Origin: Alphaproteobacteria bacterium
GTDB taxonomy: Bacteria > Pseudomonadota > Alphaproteobacteria > SMXP01
Assembly (NCBI GenBank): GCA_028285305.1
Contig: JANQPV010000049.1
Location: 1 to 64,000, forward strand
Direction of reading: 5' to 3'
DNA length: 64,000 nt
This document shows positions 49,182-58,920 of this stretch, one piece after another (the stretch's first letter is position 1; each line of letters opens with the position of its first letter). Position numbers and translations under genes: made by a program. The notes below the pieces were generated by a model. It had not been told where the DNA came from, made no database searches, and was given only the letters and a program-made list of their open reading frames with translations.

Positions 49182-50042
49182 TCAGCTTTCGAAATCGAGA
49201 CCGACATCAAGGCAGGGTGCACTGTGGGTGATCCAACCGACTGAGATGAGATCGACACCCGATTCCGCAATGGGGGCGACCGTTTCTGCCGTGATGCCGC
49301 CCGAGGCTTCCAGCAAGACTCGGCCTTGGGTGAGTTCAACGGCTTTATTCAGGGTTGCCGGCTTCATGTTATCAAGAAGTACCGCATCAATGGGGTACGC
49401 AAGGGCCTCCTCCAGTTGTTCCAGTGTATCCACTTCGACCTCGATCTTGGTCATGTGGGTGTTTGCGGCCAGCGCCGCCTCAATGGCCGGCCGAACGCCG
49501 CCGGCGATGGCGATGTGATTGTCTTTGATCAGAATTCCATCATAGAGCCCAAATCTATGGTTTACGCCTCCGCCCGCTCGAACGGCGTACTTTTCCAGGG
49601 CGCGCAGCCCCGGCGTTGTCTTCCGTGTACAACAGATCTTGGCTTTGGTGTGTGCGACCGCCTCGACAATCGCCTTCGTCGTCGAGGCAATTCCGGAAAG
49701 ATGGCCCAGAAAGTTGAGTGCCACTCGCTCGCCGGTAAGAAGAGCGCGGGCAGAGCCTTCAACGGAGGCAATCTCTGATCCCCGAACCAGCTCTTGTCCA
49801 TCCTCGCTGAGAGGTGTGAACTTAAGATCCCGCTCAATCATCTCAAAGGCGAGGCGCGCAACTTCGAGGCCGGCCAGGCACCCAGGTTGCCGAGAACGGA
49901 TGACCACCCTGGCCTTGGCGCCTGACGGGATGGTCGCTTGTGTTGTCCGATCCCCCGCATCCGCCAAATCCTCTTGGAAGGCTTCATTGATCTTTGCCTT
50001 GATGAAGGCGGCATTGGGTCCGTCTAGCAATAGATTCTCCAT
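49182..50042 (-). CDS. nadC: Nicotinate-nucleotide pyrophosphorylase (carboxylating)
   Basis: A 286-residue quinolinate phosphoribosyltransferase that makes NaMN from quinolinate and PRPP. Matching parts are IKAKINEAFQEDLADAGDRTTQATIPS, LNFLGHLSGIASTTKAIVEAV, the conserved ICCTRKTTPGLRALEKYAVRAGGG, and NHRFGLYDGILIKDNHIAIAGG. The frame is open to 50234, but ATG 50042, with GAGG about 10 bases upstream, gives the family length. It is the third gene of nadA-B-C, 25 bases after nadB. Confidence 0.97.
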   Translation of the reverse strand: MENLLLDGPNAAFIKAKINEAFQEDLADAGDRTTQATIPSGAKARVVIRSRQPGCLAGLEVARLAFEMIERDLKFTPLSEDGQELVRGSEIASVEGSARALLTGERVALNFLGHLSGIASTTKAIVEAVAHTKAKICCTRKTTPGLRALEKYAVRAGGGVNHRFGLYDGILIKDNHIAIAGGVRPAIEAALAANTHMTKIEVEVDTLEQLEEALAYPIDAVLLDNMKPATLNKAVELTQGRVLLEASGGITAETVAPIAESGVDLISVGWITHSAPCLDVGLDFES

Positions 50043-50067
50043 AAGCGGCTTACCTCGTGACGGATCA

Positions 50068-51618
50068 CTATGCCCTTTTAGGGCTTTTCGCTGCAACTTC
50101 GTCAGCCTCGCGCAAGGAAATGCGGCGTCGTTCGCAAAATGCGGGGCGGGGCTCAGGATAGTCCGATCTATAGTGTCCACCGCGGCTTTCTTCTCTGAGT
50201 TGGGCGGACGCCACAATGACTTTTGCTGCCGCAAGGGCGTTTTTGAACGAGGGATCGTCGCAGTTCTGGCCGGCTTCCTCGATGAACGCCATCGCTGTAC
50301 TGAGGCTCTCTGCGTTGCGGATCACACCCACATGGTCCGCCATCGTCCGGCGCAGCTTCTGGAGCAGCTGAGGACTGACCGAGGACGTCAAATCGTGCGT
50401 CGACGGAGAGAGCTCGACATCTGACGCCTCCTCGTCTGGGATCCGGGATTTAATCTGAGTGGCGATTTGATTGGCAAAGACGAGGGCTTCAAGAAGTGAG
50501 TTGCTGGCAAGACGATTTGCACCGTGCGCGCCTGTGCTGGCGACTTCGCCGCACGCCCAGAGTCCGCTGATGGTTGTCTCCCCAAAAGCATCTGTCACCA
50601 ATCCGCCCATGTGATAGTGCGCAGCCGGTGCTACGGGGATCGGTTCTTTGACGGGATCCAGACCGACCCGTTTGCAAGACGCATAGACAGTAGGGAAGTG
50701 CTCTGGGAAGGCAGCGCCGATTGCGTCGCGGCAGTCCAAATAAACTTTGCCAGAGCGCAAACGCTCGCGGTGGATCCCCATCGCCACCACATTTCTGGGC
50801 GCTAATTCAGCGAGCGAATGCTCATTTTTCATAAAGCGAACGTTCGAACTGTTAATAAGCACAGCGCCTTCACCCCTAAGCGCTTCCGTTGCAAGGGGTG
50901 CAGGATCTTGGTCGATGTCCATCCCGGTGGGGTGAAACTGCACGAATTCGCAGTCTGCAGCGACGGCACCTGCGCGCAGAGCCATACCAAGGCCTTCGCC
51001 GCGCACACTCTTCGGATTGGTGGTCACCGCGAACAGACCGCCCACACCCCCTGTTGCCAAGACAACCTGACTGGCATTTAGGCGAATGCTCTCTCTCTGT
51101 TTAAAGGAGAGACTCCAGGCCGTAACGCCGCGAACACGGTTGCTGTCAACGTCGAGAGCGACGGCGGTATAGCCTTCGATAATCTTGATGGAAGGCATCG
51201 CGTGCACCGCGTCGCCAATCGCTTGCATGACCGCCGCACCGGCTCGGTCACCGCTCACACGAACGATACGGTTTTCGCTATGCGCTCCTTCGCGCCCGAG
51301 TGCGAAGAAGCCGGAAGAGGTGCGGTCGAATGGAACGCCAATGTCTACCAAATCCCTGATGCGGTCGGGGGCGTCTTCCGCAACGAGCCGGGCAATTCGT
51401 TCATCTACCAATCCGGCACCGGCCTCAATCGAGTCCTTGACGTGAGCCTCGATCGAGTCTTCTGGCCCCAGCGCTGCGGCGATGCCGCCCTGAGCCCATG
51501 CGCTTGCTGTGTTTTTTGTGATGGGCGGGCCCGACAGGACCGTTACGGGCAAAGGCGCCAACTTGAGAGCAGTAAAAAGACCGGCGAGCCCGCCGCCGAT
51601 GACAAGGATGCTGGTCAT
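50068..51618 (-). CDS. nadB: L-aspartate oxidase
   Basis: A 516-residue FAD enzyme that oxidises aspartate to iminoaspartate, the substrate of NadA. The dinucleotide fold is ILVIGGGLAGLFTALKLAPL at the start. Active-site segments include the SAWAQGGIAAAL loop, VQFHPTGMDID, PVAPAAHYHMGGLVTD and GLWACGEVASTGAHGANRLASNSLLEALVFA. The C-terminal helical domain is present, ending at a full-length terminus. It sits between nadA and nadC with small gaps and is part of the putatively NadQ-controlled operon. Confidence 0.97.
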   Translation of the reverse strand: MTSILVIGGGLAGLFTALKLAPLPVTVLSGPPITKNTASAWAQGGIAAALGPEDSIEAHVKDSIEAGAGLVDERIARLVAEDAPDRIRDLVDIGVPFDRTSSGFFALGREGAHSENRIVRVSGDRAGAAVMQAIGDAVHAMPSIKIIEGYTAVALDVDSNRVRGVTAWSLSFKQRESIRLNASQVVLATGGVGGLFAVTTNPKSVRGEGLGMALRAGAVAADCEFVQFHPTGMDIDQDPAPLATEALRGEGAVLINSSNVRFMKNEHSLAELAPRNVVAMGIHRERLRSGKVYLDCRDAIGAAFPEHFPTVYASCKRVGLDPVKEPIPVAPAAHYHMGGLVTDAFGETTISGLWACGEVASTGAHGANRLASNSLLEALVFANQIATQIKSRIPDEEASDVELSPSTHDLTSSVSPQLLQKLRRTMADHVGVIRNAESLSTAMAFIEEAGQNCDDPSFKNALAAAKVIVASAQLREESRGGHYRSDYPEPRPAFCERRRISLREADEVAAKSPKRA

Positions 51619-51655: not shown

Positions 51656-52762
51656 TTACAAGGCCGCGTATTCGACATGCGCCAGCGGTTGCTGTGTACG
51701 GAACTTCGGTCCGGATACTTTACGCAACGGCAAGTCCACCATACGCTGAACGGCAAGGCGCGCTTTCTCGGCAACGGCTGGATCAACATTTACCTCGACG
51801 GTCAGCGTCTGCAAGCTGTGCAAGATGTTCTCCAAGGTGATCCGCTTCATATGTGGGCAGAGATTGCAGGGCCGTATGAATTCGACGTCCGGATTTTCCA
51901 CTGCCACATTGTCGCTCATGGAGCATTCTGTAATCAGAGCGACCTTTTCCGGCTGCTCTTTCTTCACATAGTTGGACATATCGGACGTAGAGCCCGCATA
52001 GTCGGCCGCGGCCATAACTTCAGGCGGGCATTCCGGGTGCGCGAGTACCAACAGACCTGGGTTAGCGTCCCGCAACTCATCGATGTCCTCAGTCGTGAAC
52101 TGCTCGTGGACTTCGCAGCGTCCTTTCCATGTAATGATTTCGACATCAGTCATCGTCGCGACGTTCTTGGCCAGAAATTCATCTGGGAGAAGAATAACCT
52201 CGTCCACGCCCAAAGATTCGACCACCTGAACGGCATTGGAAGACGTGCAGCAGATATCGCTCTCGGCTTTGACGTCGGCAGACGTGTTCACATAGGTCAC
52301 GACGGGCACACCGGGATATTTCGCTTTGAGCTGGCGTACATCCTCACCGGTGATCGATGCCGCCAACGAACAGCCGGCACGTTCATCGGGAATCAAGACC
52401 GTCTTTTCAGGGCTCAAGATTTTAGACGTTTCAGCCATAAAGTGAACACCAGCTTGGACAATGATATCCGCGTCAGCTTGCGCCGCCAGTTTGGCCAGTT
52501 GCAAGCTGTCTCCAGAGAAGTCAGCGACGCAGTTAAAGATCTCAGGAGTCATGTAATTGTGGGCGAGCACAATAGCGCCCCGCTCACGTTTGAGGTCGTT
52601 TATGGCCTTGATATAGCGTGCATACACAGGCCATTCGAATTCGGGGATGACGCTCGCAACACGCCGATAAAGAGGCTCAAGTTCCTTCGCCAGAGCAGGC
52701 GTGAACTCCGGAAGAGCGCTCAATTCCGTCTCTTTCTTGTTTGGACTCACCATGGTGCTCAC
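51656..52762 (-). CDS. nadA: Quinolinate synthase
   Basis: A 368-residue [4Fe-4S] enzyme that condenses iminoaspartate with dihydroxyacetone phosphate to quinolinate. The three cluster cysteines lie in [21 protein letters not shown] and [18 protein letters not shown], with [25 protein letters not shown], residues of the first repeat, also matching. I chose GTG 52762 because GAGGGGAAAG lies about 7 bases upstream; ATG 52753 is an alternative, and the frame is open to 52825 across the operator, where it would be untranslated leader. It heads nadA-nadB-nadC. Confidence 0.96.
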
Positions 52763-52806: not shown

Positions 52807-52885
52807 TTATACTCAATTTGAGCATAAGTGGATAATAGTACCTGACCGCTGAATTGTCAAGGAATTATGACGGATTCGAGCATAA
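52807..52885 (-). promoter_or_regulatory. nadA promoter with two 21-base operator-like palindromes
   Basis: Toward nadA there is a perfect -35 TTGACA (52855-52860), a 17-base spacer and a -10 TATTAT (52832-52837), so start is near 52825. Site 1 (52807-52827) has half-sites TTATACTCAA and TTGAGCATAA around one base, symmetrical except at one position, and covers the start point. Site 2 (52865-52885) has TTATG and GAGCATAA ends with a degenerate middle and sits just above the -35. The two share outer bases and are 58 bases apart. They fit the NAD-responsive NadQ type, whose candidate gene is at 57970-58920. Confidence 0.8.
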
Positions 52886-52915
52886 GTCTGGGTTGCAAAC
52901 AACTTATTGGGAACT

Positions 52916-53428
52916 TCAATGATCGCCGGAAGGAGGTGTCCATCGGGGAGGCTGGAACAGAGCGTCGCCCTCAAGAACAAAGGCGTGACCGAGAATGCTC
53001 TTCGTCAAGTTGCTCATTGGAAGTGCCGCGATGTCCTCTTCGGTAAACCAGCCCAACTCCGAGGTCTCCGAGTGATCGGGCCGCGCGGTTCCCGATAGAA
53101 CTTCACCGGCAAAGCATACACTCGTATAGACGGTCCGATCTCCGTTTGGATAAGTGTGTTCGAAGTCTGGTCCGCCGAACACGCCCACAATCCGTGTCGG
53201 CCGAACATACAAGCCAGTCTCTTCCCAGCACTCGCGGACTGCGGCGTCGGCCGGAGGCTCATGCGCTTCGATTTGACCTCCCACGGTCATCCAATGCCCC
53301 GAATCAACGCTTTTCACGAGCAGAACGCGCCGCCGGGCATCGTAAACAAGGACCGAAACGGAAGGCAGGATCAAAAGATCGTGTCCGATCCGTTTACGGA
53401 TGCTCTGAACATAGTTCGACGCAGGCAT
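52916..53428 (-). CDS. Nudix hydrolase
   Basis: A 170-residue Nudix protein with a complete Nudix box, GGQIEAHEPPADAAVRECWEETGL (about residues 49-72), fitting GX5EX7REUXEEXGU. VSVLVYDARRRVLLVKSVDSG before it and FAGEVLSG, ELGWFTEEDI after it match ADP-ribose/nucleotide pyrophosphatase-like members, but the substrate cannot be told. It lies upstream of nadA on the same strand, yet the strong nadA promoter begins after its stop. Its place beside NAD synthesis genes makes a dinucleotide substrate conceivable. Confidence 0.92.
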   Translation of the reverse strand: MPASNYVQSIRKRIGHDLLILPSVSVLVYDARRRVLLVKSVDSGHWMTVGGQIEAHEPPADAAVRECWEETGLYVRPTRIVGVFGGPDFEHTYPNGDRTVYTSVCFAGEVLSGTARPDHSETSELGWFTEEDIAALPMSNLTKSILGHAFVLEGDALFQPPRWTPPSGDH

Positions 53429-53440
53429 CGCTCGAACCGA

Positions 53441-54268
53441 TTAGGTGCCGGTAAATTCGGGAGGCCGCTTTTCGAGAAAGTGGGCAACACCTTCTTTGAA
53501 GTCGTCGGTCTTCAAGCTTTCAATCATTTCCGTATTGGCAACGCCAATCGCCTCGGCGAGTGTCAAGTTAAGGGCCTCGTAGACCTGTTTCTTAATGATG
53601 CGGGTGGAGCGGGGCGAGGACAAGGCCGCCAGCTCTTTGGCGTATGCGCGCACTTCCTGCATGAAGGTATCTTGGGGGATGACCCGGCTGACGAGCCCCA
53701 TTTTTTCGGCTTCTTTGGCCGTCACTTTGCGCGCCGTCATCAGGAGGTCGAGGGCGTTCGAGTGGCCCACCAAGCGGGGCAGGGTCCAGCTCAATCCGTG
53801 CTCCGCAATCAATCCACGTCGCGCAAACGCCGTCGTGAAGACAGCATTCTCCGATGCGAACCGGATATCCGTGAACAGAACGATTGCAAGACCCATGCCC
53901 GCAACGGGACCGTTGATGGCGCCGATGATGGGTTTCGTAACGCCTAAGAGGTAAGAATACTGGGTTTGATAATCTGCGGGAACGCGCGGGTCGTAAGGCT
54001 TGGTCGTCACGCGCAAGGACCGTTCTTCCGGTCCGTCTTTGCGGCTGCTCATGTCGGCCAAATTGTTCATCTCGGCTCCGGCACAAAACCCGCGGCCGGC
54101 GCCCGTCAAGATGATCACCCGTACGTTTGGATCAGCATCAGCTTTCGCCATGGCGTCTCGGACTTCCTTTTCCATCTCTCCGGTCCAGGCGTTCAGTCGC
54201 TCGGGCCGGTTAAGTGTTACGGTCGCGAGGTGATCGCTGGTTTCGTAGATTACGTTTTCGTAGGTCAT
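53441..54268 (-). CDS. Enoyl-CoA hydratase/isomerase family protein
   Basis: A 275-residue crotonase-fold enzyme. VTLNRPERLNAWTGEMEKEV near the start, the oxyanion segment GAGRGFCAGAEMNNLADM (about residue 60), GAINGPVAGMGLAIVLFTDIRFASENAVF, and the catalytic glutamate in GLIAEHGLSWTLPRLVG are in the usual places. It probably hydrates trans-2-enoyl-CoA in fatty- or aromatic-acid breakdown; dehalogenase- or isomerase-type activity is possible. It lies 12 bases upstream of the Nudix gene and may be co-transcribed with it. Confidence 0.93.
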   Translation of the reverse strand: MTYENVIYETSDHLATVTLNRPERLNAWTGEMEKEVRDAMAKADADPNVRVIILTGAGRGFCAGAEMNNLADMSSRKDGPEERSLRVTTKPYDPRVPADYQTQYSYLLGVTKPIIGAINGPVAGMGLAIVLFTDIRFASENAVFTTAFARRGLIAEHGLSWTLPRLVGHSNALDLLMTARKVTAKEAEKMGLVSRVIPQDTFMQEVRAYAKELAALSSPRSTRIIKKQVYEALNLTLAEAIGVANTEMIESLKTDDFKEGVAHFLEKRPPEFTGT

Positions 54269-54456
54269 GGGGTCTCCTGGTGTCCGGCCAATCGCTGCGC
54301 CCGAAATCTCCTCTTAGGGCATCGGGGCAAGGCTAGAGAGCTTTTAGCCCGCTTGTCGCCGGATTGGTAGAGCAGTCGATTCGTTCAACGGCGTTTCGCC
54401 GTGCATTAGTTCTAAGCAAAGAAAGAGTAGCGCTCCGGTCACTAAGCGTTTTCATA

Positions 54457-54493
54457 AATACTTGTTGCAACAAATATTGTTATGACATATAAA
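54457..54493 (+). promoter_or_regulatory. Candidate MarR operator and promoter of the monooxygenase operon
   Basis: A 12-base perfect palindrome TTGTTGCAACAA (54462-54473) lies within a 22-base near-palindrome (54457-54478, AATA and TATT ends, one mismatched pair). It overlaps a -35-like TTGCAA (54465-54470), and 17 bases on is a -10 TATAAA (54488-54493). Start would be near 54500, 25 bases before the ATG with GGGAGAAG. The MarR gene two places downstream is the obvious ligand-responsive repressor; MarR operators are typically palindromes of this kind. Confidence 0.65.
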
Positions 54494-54524
54494 AGATTGA
54501 AGACGAAAGAATGGGAGAAGAGTC

Positions 54525-56318
54525 ATGTCCGAGCGCAATGTACCTGTACTTATTGTTGGTGGTGGAGGGGCTGGCCTGACATGTTCCATGCTGCTGTCTC
54601 AGCTCGGCATTGACACCTGGTTGGTGAATGCTCGGCCGTCGACATCGGACCTGCCCAAAGCGCATGTCCTAAATCAGCGGGCGATGGAAATTTTGAAGGA
54701 TGTGGGGTTGGCCGAGACCATTTACGAACGCGGAACGCCCCTTGAAAACATGAAAGCCTCGGCTTGGTATGCGGGCCTTGCGGGAGACGACGAAGACTTT
54801 GGCCGCAAGCTCGGCCAATTGGAAGCGTGGGGGGCCGGGTACACCAACCCGGATTGGGTGGCCGCAAGTCCGTGTGCGTCTACGAACCTTCCGCAGATAC
54901 GTCTCGAGCCGTTACTCCGTGCGAGGGCGGAGGAAATGGCGCCAGGCAAAGTCAACTTCAACCACGAAGTCATCGATATCCGGCAAGACGCCGAGGGTGT
55001 GACCACAACAATTCGCGACCTGAACAACAACAATGCGTACACCGTCAAGTCCAAATACGTGCTCGCGTGTGACGGCGGGCGCACCATCGGCCCGGCTCTC
55101 GGTGTAGAAATGGAGGGGCCGCGCGACCTGTCCGAGCAGATCACGATCCATATGACCGCCGACCTGTCCCAGTGGGCGCGCGATCCAGACGTCTTGATAC
55201 GCTGGATGTGGCCACCACAAGTGGGTGTTATGTCCGTACTCGTGCCCATGGGGCCCGAAAAGTGGGGGCCTGAGTCAGAGGAATGGGTCTTTCATCTCAA
55301 TTATCCGACGGATGATCCGCGTGCGTTGGACAACGACAAAATTGAGAAAGACATGCGCGCGGCCTTGGGGATCAGCGATCATCCAGTCAAGATCCATAAG
55401 ATTACGCGGTGGTCGCTTGAGGGCGTTGTGGCTGAGCGACTTCAAGTGGGACGGGTCTTCCTGCTCGGAGATGCCGCCCATCGCCACCCCCCGACCGGAG
55501 GATTGGGCCTCAACAGCGCCATTCAAGACGCCCATAACATGTGCTGGAAACTGGCCGCGGTGCTGCATGGAAGGGCATCGGGTGCTCTACTCGAGAGTTA
55601 CGCAAGCGAACGCAAGCCCGTCGTCCAAAACAACGTGGATTGCTCTGTTGAAAGTGCGTTGAATCATTTCGCAATTGCAGAAGCGATAGGAATCAGCCCA
55701 GAAGCCGGAGCGGAACAAAATTGGAAGAGTGTCAAACGTCTCTGGAATGATCGCCCCGAAGACGAAGAGTTTCGTCGGCTGGTGGCTCAATCCATCCATA
55801 CACAGACGATGGAGTTTGGCGAACACAATATCGAATACGGATACACCTATAGAAGGGAGGGGGCCGCGATTGTGCCCGGCGCGGACGAAGTGCAGGCTTC
55901 GCCGGACTCCAGGCGACTCTACCAGCCCAGTACCGTGCCCGGATCGTGCTTGCCTCACGCTTGGGTGGACACCTATGAAGGAGAGCGCGTGTCCACGCTC
56001 GACCTGGTTCAGCCTGGCCGCTTTCTGCTGATTGCAGGAGAAAACGGGCCCGCGTGGTGTGATGCGGCCAAGCAGATCGCGAAGGGGCTGGATCTGCCTC
56101 TTGATGCCGTAATCATTGGTGCATCGAACGGCGATTACTTGGATCAACGCAGCAGTTGGCTCGCCCAGCGCGGCATAACAAACGAGGGAGCCATTCTCGT
56201 TCGGCCGGACCGCTTCGTTGCCTGGCGTAATCTTGGCAGCTCTGCGGCGCCCCAAGCGGAATTGGAACGCGCGCTCACACTTGTTTTGGGACGTGATGAA
56301 ATGAGAAACGCCGCATGA
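54525..56318 (+). CDS. FAD-dependent aromatic monooxygenase (PheA/TfdB-like)
   Basis: A 597-residue class A flavoprotein hydroxylase. FAD motifs are VLIVGGGGAGLTCSMLLSQLG (residues 8-28), the middle YVLACDGGRTIG (DG motif, about residue 180), and the GD motif RVFLLGDAAHRHPPTGGLGLNSAIQDAHNMCWKL (about residues 305-340). A thioredoxin-like C-terminal domain (residues 470-590) matches phenol hydroxylase-type enzymes. It likely hydroxylates a phenolic or other aromatic ring with NAD(P)H and oxygen; the substrate is unknown. It overlaps marR by four bases and heads a three-gene operon. Confidence 0.93.
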   Translation: MSERNVPVLIVGGGGAGLTCSMLLSQLGIDTWLVNARPSTSDLPKAHVLNQRAMEILKDVGLAETIYERGTPLENMKASAWYAGLAGDDEDFGRKLGQLEAWGAGYTNPDWVAASPCASTNLPQIRLEPLLRARAEEMAPGKVNFNHEVIDIRQDAEGVTTTIRDLNNNNAYTVKSKYVLACDGGRTIGPALGVEMEGPRDLSEQITIHMTADLSQWARDPDVLIRWMWPPQVGVMSVLVPMGPEKWGPESEEWVFHLNYPTDDPRALDNDKIEKDMRAALGISDHPVKIHKITRWSLEGVVAERLQVGRVFLLGDAAHRHPPTGGLGLNSAIQDAHNMCWKLAAVLHGRASGALLESYASERKPVVQNNVDCSVESALNHFAIAEAIGISPEAGAEQNWKSVKRLWNDRPEDEEFRRLVAQSIHTQTMEFGEHNIEYGYTYRREGAAIVPGADEVQASPDSRRLYQPSTVPGSCLPHAWVDTYEGERVSTLDLVQPGRFLLIAGENGPAWCDAAKQIAKGLDLPLDAVIIGASNGDYLDQRSSWLAQRGITNEGAILVRPDRFVAWRNLGSSAAPQAELERALTLVLGRDEMRNAA

Positions 56319-56842
56319 ACGAAGTTAAAGTACGCGAACCTGAATACGATCGAATAGGCCGCGACACCTTCATAAATTTGTTCCTGGCCGCTGGTCGCCT
56401 TACGGAGGAAGTCGAAAACGTCTGCAAGGCGCAAGGTCTCACCATGGCACATTATGTCGTCCTTTGGGTGGTATGCCTATCGGAGGCCAAGCAGCAAGGA
56501 GGCGTGCCCATGGGTGTGATCACCGACGGCCTGCTGACGCGAGCATCCGATGCAACCCGTCTCGTGGACCGGCTCAAACGCGATGGGTATTTGGAGCGGT
56601 TTCCCTCGGAGAATGATCGGCGCGTGGTTCTGGTGCGCGCGACACAAAGCGGGCAAACGCTCTTCCGCCAACTCACGTTCGGTATAAAAAGTCTTCACCG
56701 GGAGCAATGGAGCGCGCTCACCCGCTCAGAACTCAAGGAATTGTTGGTCCTCTTGTCCAAAGTTTTATGGCGGGAAGAGACGCCGTCGAGCAAACATCCC
56801 TTAGAGGAGATGCCCCCGGTTATGGCCACCGGCAATAAATGA
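56315..56842 (+). CDS. MarR-family transcriptional regulator
   Basis: A 175-residue winged-helix regulator. The domain spans about residues 25-140: FLAAGRLTEEVENVCKAQGLTMAHYVVLWVV, the recognition helix TRASDATRLVDRLKRDGYLERF, and the wing SENDRRVVLVRATQSG. It overlaps the monooxygenase stop and the next frame (ATGA-type junctions), so it is co-expressed with the enzymes. It most likely represses the operon through the palindrome at 54457-54478 and releases it on binding the aromatic substrate. Confidence 0.9.
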   Translation: MNEVKVREPEYDRIGRDTFINLFLAAGRLTEEVENVCKAQGLTMAHYVVLWVVCLSEAKQQGGVPMGVITDGLLTRASDATRLVDRLKRDGYLERFPSENDRRVVLVRATQSGQTLFRQLTFGIKSLHREQWSALTRSELKELLVLLSKVLWREETPSSKHPLEEMPPVMATGNK

Positions 56843-56871
56843 AGACTTTAACAAAGAGCAGGGAGGGAAGA

Positions 56872-57906
56872 ATGATCGAAAGAAGAACGCTGATGAAAGC
56901 CACCGCCGCGGCCACCGCGTTGGGAACATTTGGAGCGGGAAGTGCCTTGAGTGAATCGGGGCCGCAAAAAATTGATGTGCACCAACACTTCCTACCCGAT
57001 GTCTACACCGAAGCCTTGGCGAAATTGGGTATTCGCGGGGCAGGGGGAGTCGACTTTCCCGAATGGACTCCCGAAGGCGCCGTCGAGATGATGAACGGTC
57101 AGGGGATCCAGACGGGCATCTTGTCGATCTCTTCGCCCGGTGTGCATTTTGGGGATGACGGCGCCGCAGTCGACTTAGCCAGAACCTGTAACGAATACTC
57201 TGCTGCTCTGGTTAAGCAGAACCTGGATCGGTTTGGTGTCTTTGCCGTTCTCCCCATGCCTCTAGTCGAGGCCTCGTTGACGGAGGCTGAGTTTGCGCTC
57301 GATGAATTGGCATTGGATGGTGTTGTCCTTCCGTCCAGTTACTCTGATGGAACCTATTTGGGCGACCCAAAGTTTGATGCTTTGATGGCCGAGCTGGATC
57401 AACGCTCGGCGGTGGCTTTTGTTCACCCGACCGTGCCGGTCAGTGCACCGGGCGAGCAGCTTACCATTCCTCCGTTTGCGACTGAGTTCGTGTTCGACAC
57501 CAGCCGGGCAATTGCCAACCTGATCTGGACGGGCGCGGCCGAAAAGTACCCCAATATCAAGTTTATCTTCTCTCACGCCGGAGGAACCGCACCGTTTCTG
57601 GCGTGGCGCTGGTCTCTGTTGGAGCAATTGCCCGCAACAAAGGCTGCCGCTCCGAAGGGCTTTTTGCACTACTTACGGAACTTCTATTACGACACGGCAT
57701 TGTCGGGAGGCGAGCAGGTCCTCAGCGCACTAACGAAACTCGTTCCCAGTGACCGCATTCTGTTCGGCAGCGACTTTCCCTTTGCTCCGCCTCCCGTCAG
57801 CGTCGCGGCCTGGGCCGGAGTCTCTCGGTTCGATGGCCTGAACGCGGCAGACCGGGACAATATCGCATCCCTAAATGCCAAACAGATGTTCCCGCGGCTT
57901 GCCTAG
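56872..57906 (+). CDS. Tat-signal amidohydrolase (ACMSD/gamma-resorcylate decarboxylase-like, Amidohydro_2)
   Basis: A 344-residue metal-dependent amidohydrolase. Metal ligands appear in KIDVHQHFLPD (HxH, about residue 34), VAFVHPTVPV, FIFSHAGGTAPFLAWRW and FGSDFPFAPPP (Asp). The ACMSD-like branch contains decarboxylases and hydrolases of aromatic or lactone compounds. The N-terminus MIERRTLMKATAAATALGT has an RRxLMK twin-arginine motif and a hydrophobic stretch ending near residue 28, so export by Tat is predicted. GAGGGAAG precedes ATG 56872; the frame is open to 56839. It is the last gene of the monooxygenase operon. Confidence 0.9.
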   Translation: MIERRTLMKATAAATALGTFGAGSALSESGPQKIDVHQHFLPDVYTEALAKLGIRGAGGVDFPEWTPEGAVEMMNGQGIQTGILSISSPGVHFGDDGAAVDLARTCNEYSAALVKQNLDRFGVFAVLPMPLVEASLTEAEFALDELALDGVVLPSSYSDGTYLGDPKFDALMAELDQRSAVAFVHPTVPVSAPGEQLTIPPFATEFVFDTSRAIANLIWTGAAEKYPNIKFIFSHAGGTAPFLAWRWSLLEQLPATKAAAPKGFLHYLRNFYYDTALSGGEQVLSALTKLVPSDRILFGSDFPFAPPPVSVAAWAGVSRFDGLNAADRDNIASLNAKQMFPRLA

Positions 57907-57969
57907 ACTTTCGCAAGGTCAAGCGGTAGCTCTGGCGGCAGCTTACAAGCTGGTGGATGAGGTGCACGC

Positions 57970-58920
57970 TCAAGATCGCGACGGCGACAGGCGGAATCCC
58001 GGTGCGGGACGCTCTTGCAGCACTTCGCGCCGGAAGCGGAACTGTTCCGCCGGCCGGCCAACAGATTGGCTCGCCGTGCGGCCCGTCCCCTCGACGAGGC
58101 CTCCGGTTTCCACCAAGCGTCGAAAGTTTTGCTTATGAAGGCGGGTGCCCGAAATGGCCTCCACGGTGCGCTGCAACTGCAAAAGAGTAAAATTCACCGG
58201 CATCAGTTCGAAGACAAGAGGCCTGTACTTGAGCTTGCCACGCAAACGCCCCATGGCCGTGGCGAGAATACGGCGGTGATCCGACATCATCGTCTTACCC
58301 AACAAGTCTGTGAGCGGATCAGAAGGTTCGGACGGATCCCGCCCTTCGGCAACGAGCCCCGCCTCGAACAGAAGCTCATAGCGGTCCAGCACCTTTTCTT
58401 CGTCCCAGGGTACGCCATCAAATCCAAAACAGAGTTGGGACCGCTGCCAACGCACTTGTCTCTGACCGGAAGTGGATCCGCTCCCCGACCATTGCCGCAA
58501 AGCCGGCAGGATCTGTTCGTCGATGACTTCCGGCTTTTCTTCTCGCCAATCTTCCCAAGGAAAATAGGAAAACCAGTTGTCCCACACGGTGTCGGGCGCC
58601 AAAAGTTCAGGCGCATCCCGCGTCAATGCTAGATAGCCGATCGAAATGAGATTTGCGTCTTGATTGTTCTCGGCGTGGCGGCCGCGGTCGCCAAATGTAT
58701 AGAGTTGCTCAACATATCCTAAGTGAAGATATGTTTGTTCCTCCACCCAAGAGCGCAAGCCGAGTTCGAGCGTGCGATGTTGTTCTGGATCGAATGGGCC
58801 ATAGGGAAGGCCGGCTTCCGAACGAGCGCCATCCGGGCGAAGGACGACGACATAGGGGATTTCATCGCGAACGGTGACGATGACGGCCGTCAAGCCGATC
58901 ACGATATTGGGTTGAGACAT
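57970..58920 (-). CDS. nadQ: NadQ-like NAD biosynthesis regulator (degenerate Nudix plus winged helix, COG4111)
   Basis: A 316-residue protein with a Nudix-like N-terminal half (VIGLTAVIVTVRDEIPYVVVLRP; GLPYGPFDPEQHRTLELGLRSWVEEQT, in which the catalytic Nudix box is not intact) and a C-terminal winged-helix part (FTLLQLQRTVEAISGTRLHKQNFRRLVETGGLVEGTG), the same order as NrtR. I recognise the COG4111 group, the NadQ-type repressors of NAD genes in alphaproteobacteria. I place its target at the nadA palindromes, 5 kb away; the regulator senses a NAD-pathway metabolite by analogy. It is the last gene of HD-phosphatase-nadQ. Confidence 0.8.
   Translation of the reverse strand: MSQPNIVIGLTAVIVTVRDEIPYVVVLRPDGARSEAGLPYGPFDPEQHRTLELGLRSWVEEQTYLHLGYVEQLYTFGDRGRHAENNQDANLISIGYLALTRDAPELLAPDTVWDNWFSYFPWEDWREEKPEVIDEQILPALRQWSGSGSTSGQRQVRWQRSQLCFGFDGVPWDEEKVLDRYELLFEAGLVAEGRDPSEPSDPLTDLLGKTMMSDHRRILATAMGRLRGKLKYRPLVFELMPVNFTLLQLQRTVEAISGTRLHKQNFRRLVETGGLVEGTGRTASQSVGRPAEQFRFRREVLQERPAPGFRLSPSRS

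Follow-up and report, generated by a model that had tools for sequence, protein, structure and literature searches.

The nadA gene of this alphaproteobacterium raises the question of which regulator controls its promoter, and of what the two operator-like sequences on either side of that promoter contribute. In the stretch analyzed (64,000 nucleotides; hereafter the window), nadA, nadB and nadC are consecutive on the minus strand, and the promoter ahead of nadA agrees with the consensus at 11 of 12 positions (TTGACA, 17 bp, TATTAT), nearly perfect as the initial annotation had it. Read along the minus strand, the order is site 2, ttcc, TTGACA, 17 bp, TATTAT, ccac, site 1, leader and nadA (Table 1). 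Between nadQ, the gene of the presumed regulator, and nadA lie five genes (52898-57960) encoding a Nudix hydrolase, a likely enoyl-CoA hydratase, a likely FAD monooxygenase, a likely MarR regulator and an amidohydrolase, unlike the arrangement in many relatives, where nadQ immediately precedes nadA. Read-through from the codirectional upstream Nudix gene could also feed nadA. A search of the window and of 13 related loci for a known RNA element in the leader gave no Rfam match.

Table 1. Features of the nadABC control region and its presumed regulator, in window coordinates
Feature	Position	Strand	Remarks
nadC, quinolinate phosphoribosyltransferase	49182..50105	-	third gene; overlaps nadB
nadB, L-aspartate oxidase	50068..51618	-	second gene of the presumed nadABC operon
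nadA, quinolinate synthase	51656..52762	-	matches NadA models; likely GTG start at 52762 behind AGGGG, alternatively ATG at 52753
Site 1, predicted NadQ operator TTATGCTCAAATTGAGTATAA	52807..52827	-	covers the putative nadA start point
-10 box TATTAT	52832..52837	-	17 bp spacer; start point predicted near 52825, inside site 1
-35 box TTGACA	52855..52860	-	sequence match
Site 2, putative decayed distal NadQ operator TTATGCTCGAATCCGTCATAA	52865..52885	-	left half TTATGCTC intact, right half broken
nadQ, presumed regulator of sites 1 and 2	57970..58920	-	C-terminal NrtR-type winged helix

The nadQ product matches the Pfam model NrtR_WHD (8.5e-19) and, over nearly its whole length, the NadQ structures 7Q91-7Q94 (E 5.6e-83 for 7q91), which bears out the earlier suggestion of a COG4111 NadQ-like regulator encoded 5 kb from the promoter; it is 64-68% identical to NadQ of same-family genomes. 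The C-terminal winged helix is common to the NrtR regulators of NAD metabolism, but the window protein scores only 52.7 bits with the NCBIfam NtrR model, far under the cut-off of 400, and no Nudix model matched its N-terminal part. With the winged helix alone matched, we rejected an NrtR identity; judged from its sequence, the protein is NadQ. Neither NadQ nor its class of operator is new: Leyn et al. 2016 (PMC5343134) predicted NadQ as the regulator of nadABC, leaving the effector open in the passages on this regulon, and the title of Minazzato et al. 2022 (J Struct Biol 214:107917; PDB 7Q91-7Q94) calls NadQ ATP-responsive. The effectors first proposed for a binding assay (NAD, NADH, ADP-ribose and NMN) thus make an incomplete list, which omits the ATP named in that title. 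Upstream of nadQ itself (position 58920), a matrix scan of the window gave no NadQ-like score that would point to autoregulation.

Site 1 fits both the published NadQ consensus ttATRCTCannntGAGYATaa and the pattern drawn up in the initial annotation without a mismatch, and it stands, as an operator of the NadQ regulon should, before a gene of NAD synthesis. Its position at the expected transcription start agrees with the proposal that a repressor bound there would block the promoter. None of 100 shuffles of the window yielded even a 3-mismatch match to the NadQ pattern. When the pattern was scanned across the 5.4 Mb genome, site 1 alone matched without mismatch and was the sole site of such quality; two further places lie at 3 mismatches, the same number as for a reversed control pattern, and the scan revealed no other member of a NadQ regulon. 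With a scoring matrix built from 183 NadQ sites of relatives, site 1 reaches 34.2 bits, where the median of those 183 sites is 27.7.

If site 1 is a NadQ operator, relatives that keep the regulator should keep such sites before nadA, and they do. From a first sample of the class, in which 82 of 290 genomes match NadQ, we compared 80 NadQ-positive with 20 NadQ-negative genomes. A nadA like that of the window is present in 77 of the 80 NadQ-positive genomes; any nadA match was found in 6 of the 20 NadQ-negative ones, and only one of these is of the window's type. A site with at most 4 mismatches occurs in 74 of 76 nadA upstream regions of NadQ-positive genomes and in none of the six nadA regions of NadQ-negative genomes. 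Most relatives carry two operators, usually spaced 53-76 bp apart. A 1.8-Mb genome from another class has nadA and nadQ in divergent orientation, with a single perfect NadQ operator between them (L204:3829-3850).

Site 2 is a different matter. It has 5 mismatches to the consensus, lacks the highly conserved A15 and G16 in its right half, and is better described as one good half plus CATAA than as a palindrome. At 11.1 bits it falls under the 5% quantile (17.0 bits) of the relatives' sites, and it scores 15.1 bits with a matrix made from distal sites only; yet it is third-best among the 127,960 window positions scored, outscored only by site 1, which counts once on each strand. Three genomes of the same family have nadA (L044-L046); in each, a distal operator stands 62 bp ahead of the proximal operator, and the place of site 2 matches that of these distal operators. 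By its sequence and position, therefore, site 2 is not a chance match: it appears homologous in place to the relatives' distal operator but decayed, and it would still rank third because it is the decayed counterpart of an operator found in many relatives. It may serve at most as a weak auxiliary half-site. The initial annotation saw two palindromes, both likely NadQ operators; this description is strongly upheld for site 1, whereas site 2 qualifies only through its position relative to the relatives.

Three other accounts of the sites have to be set against these data. A different palindrome-binding regulator might occupy site 1, its likeness to a NadQ site being coincidental; NadQ binding to site 1 is indeed a prediction from sequence, but the consensus is matched there without a mismatch, such sites co-occur tightly with NadQ across 76 nadA regions, and the genome holds no other such site, so that we regard a coincidence as extremely improbable. 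Site 2 might still be a working operator, adding a block of its own ahead of the -35 box, independent of site 1. Its third-best score and its conserved place would favor this, while the loss of A15 and G16, a score below nearly all of the relatives' sites, and the fact that the -10 box no longer lies inside site 2 all speak against it; we consider a working site 2 unlikely, though it keeps a real chance. The earlier note also raised looping, in which a NadQ tetramer or paired dimers would hold both sites and loop 58 bp over the promoter. The coordinates do place the site centres 58 bp apart, the promoter is flanked by two sites, and the two-site layout is common among relatives (68 of 105 leaders). 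But at 58 bp, or 5.5 helical turns, the two centres face opposite sides of the DNA; the operator spacings of relatives show no helical phase (55 two-site pairs, R 0.12-0.15, Rayleigh p 0.3-0.5); one half of site 2 is broken; and an overlap with the promoter accounts for the distal site in relatives (see below). With the operators off the same face and phase absent among the 55 pairs, we rejected DNA looping, whose probability we put at very low.

We are thus left with high confidence in a NadQ-controlled nadABC promoter with a derived layout, in which site 1 is in charge at the start point and site 2 is a remnant; NadQ control is supported by the match at site 1, the match of the regulator to NadQ structures and the distribution of sites with and without NadQ. 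The flanked promoter noticed in the initial annotation stands; the decay of site 2 and the derived character of the layout had escaped it. Bound to site 1, NadQ would cover the transcription start and keep RNA polymerase from starting or leaving. ATP reportedly releases NadQ from DNA, and as effector it would be expected to lift this repression.

The ancestral layout can be approached through the relatives, many of which have a -35 box (TTGACN) that stops 3-6 nt short of the distal operator. Distal operators with such a box have TAGCAT or TAGTAT in place of GAGYAT, mostly 16-19 bp from the -35 box: TAG outnumbers GAG by 37 to 14 where a -35 box lies 1-8 nt upstream, versus 6 to 107 where there is none (Fisher 5e-19). 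A held-out set shows the association in the same direction (p 0.009), on only three boxed sites. We read the distal operator of the relatives as one with the promoter's -10 box embedded in it. A few close relatives (L044-L046 and L048) do not have a fitting spacing to TAGCAT; their -10 box must be at another place within the operator or close to it. An asymmetry of the distal site as a feature of binding was considered and rejected, as the -10 box explains it better; a second promoter inside the relatives' proximal operator was likewise rejected, its right half GAGYAT being a poor -10 box.

Between the two operators, the relatives have a G+C-rich hairpin followed by a U-run. Of 104 leaders, 66 have such a hairpin, where dinucleotide shuffles give 22.9, and 59 of these hairpins leave a gap of 7-12 nt between the end of the U-run and the proximal operator (3.25 in shuffles); among 48 further leaders held out from the finding of the pattern, there are 23 hairpins against 7.85 expected, and 21 of the 23 have the 7-12 nt gap against 1.4, all of these comparisons overstating independence, because the leaders, although thinned by shared 10-mers, are still related. 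The sequence of the hairpin varies and its register to the proximal operator is kept. Leaders with a promoter overlapping the proximal operator nearly always lack the hairpin (3 of 26 have it, versus 56 of 79 otherwise; p 1e-7), as also in the held-out set (1 of 14 versus 20 of 34; p 0.001), and the hairpin is absent from all 17 leaders of the first set with tandem operators 22-31 bp apart. The window obeys this rule: its promoter stands directly before site 1 and there is no hairpin, the region between the operators holding TTGACA-17-TATTAT, no U-run and only a weak fold (-5.4 kcal/mol, z -0.9). The full layout also occurs outside the class, ahead of nadC in genome L203, as TTGACC, TAATGCTCAGGTTTAGCATAA, hairpin, TTTTTT, 9 nt and AAATACTCAAAATGAGCATTA.

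Individual loci illustrate these arrangements. Across many alphaproteobacteria it is the position of the hairpin, not its sequence, that is conserved, and in L047, L053, L056, L059, L064, L069, L107, L115 and others the gap from the end of the U-run to the proximal operator is about 9 nt. Within this gap, the relatives tend to have CC at positions -6 and -5, just ahead of the operator (about 75% and 71% conserved). L098, L101, L111 and L113 (also L080, L089 and L102) have two operators 26-28 bp apart directly behind a TTGAC box, and their leaders are without a hairpin. In another class of the phylum, the operator, -10 box, hairpin and operator follow one another downstream of nadQ in L203:2971-3950 and L206:3836-3930 (minus strand), the gene after this layout in L203 being nadC instead of nadA.

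The hairpin might have nothing to do with NadQ and merely end the upstream gene, its fixed distance to the operator being inherited. In many genomes nadQ does lie upstream in the same direction, as this would require. However, in 25 of 54 leaders with a hairpin, the nearest long reading frame upstream is divergent, although some of these frames may be spurious, and 8 of 10 frames checked match Pfam families (MFS, PQQ dehydrogenase, ChuX, DUF2339, phosphatase-family); therefore, the hairpin is probably not just the terminator of an upstream gene. The register is moreover kept while hairpin sequences differ, and a promoter lies upstream of the hairpin in many leaders. An upstream terminator with an inherited distance accordingly seems improbable to us as the general explanation.

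As a tentative alternative, to which we give somewhat less than an even chance, the nadA leader of NadQ-bearing proteobacteria (the nadC leader in one genome of another class) may be a two-stage NadQ switch, in which the efficiency of an intrinsic terminator is governed by the DNA-bound repressor, the proximal operator lying about 9 nt past the U-run. At the first stage, NadQ on the distal operator, which contains the -10 box, would block initiation. At the second, NadQ on the proximal operator would stall an escaping polymerase in the U-run, so that the leader terminator could act; the geometry of the stall would be that generally known for a polymerase at a roadblock. The ancestor of the window lineage, like most relatives, would have had a promoter overlapping the distal operator and a terminator-like hairpin before the proximal one. 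In the window lineage a new promoter would then have arisen between the operators and the hairpin been lost, in whichever order, so that control would now rest on site 1; the second stage may have been lost when the promoter moved next to the proximal operator.

The window shares with the NadQ regulon as described (PMC5343134) the regulator family, the 21-bp operator consensus and the target nadABC; it differs in having the promoter between the operators, the distal operator decayed and nadQ 5 kb away. The passages of that paper on the NadQ regulon describe no leader terminator. Roadblock repression is known for LacI, CodY and CcpA (PMC4132739, PMC10310618), with an operator in the transcribed leader downstream of the promoter, as we infer for most of the relatives, and with the stalled polymerase freed largely through Mfd. 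Unlike these known roadblocks, the relatives have a terminator-like hairpin at the expected stall point, which the window lacks. A literature search for a nadA leader or a roadblock joined to an intrinsic terminator returned nothing relevant; the register of operator and hairpin in relatives is apparently unreported, although Minazzato et al. 2022 may already note the layout.

The window itself adds to the known NadQ regulon one genome with a rearranged promoter, and the most interesting part, the leader hairpin, lies in the relatives, the window's derived layout being without it. If the conserved register of hairpin and operator is what it seems, a repressor on the DNA could be coupled to a terminator by stalling polymerase in the U-run, whose weak RNA-DNA hybrid lets the enzyme dissociate. 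Release from a roadblock is usually credited to Mfd; in NadQ leaders, release could be built in.
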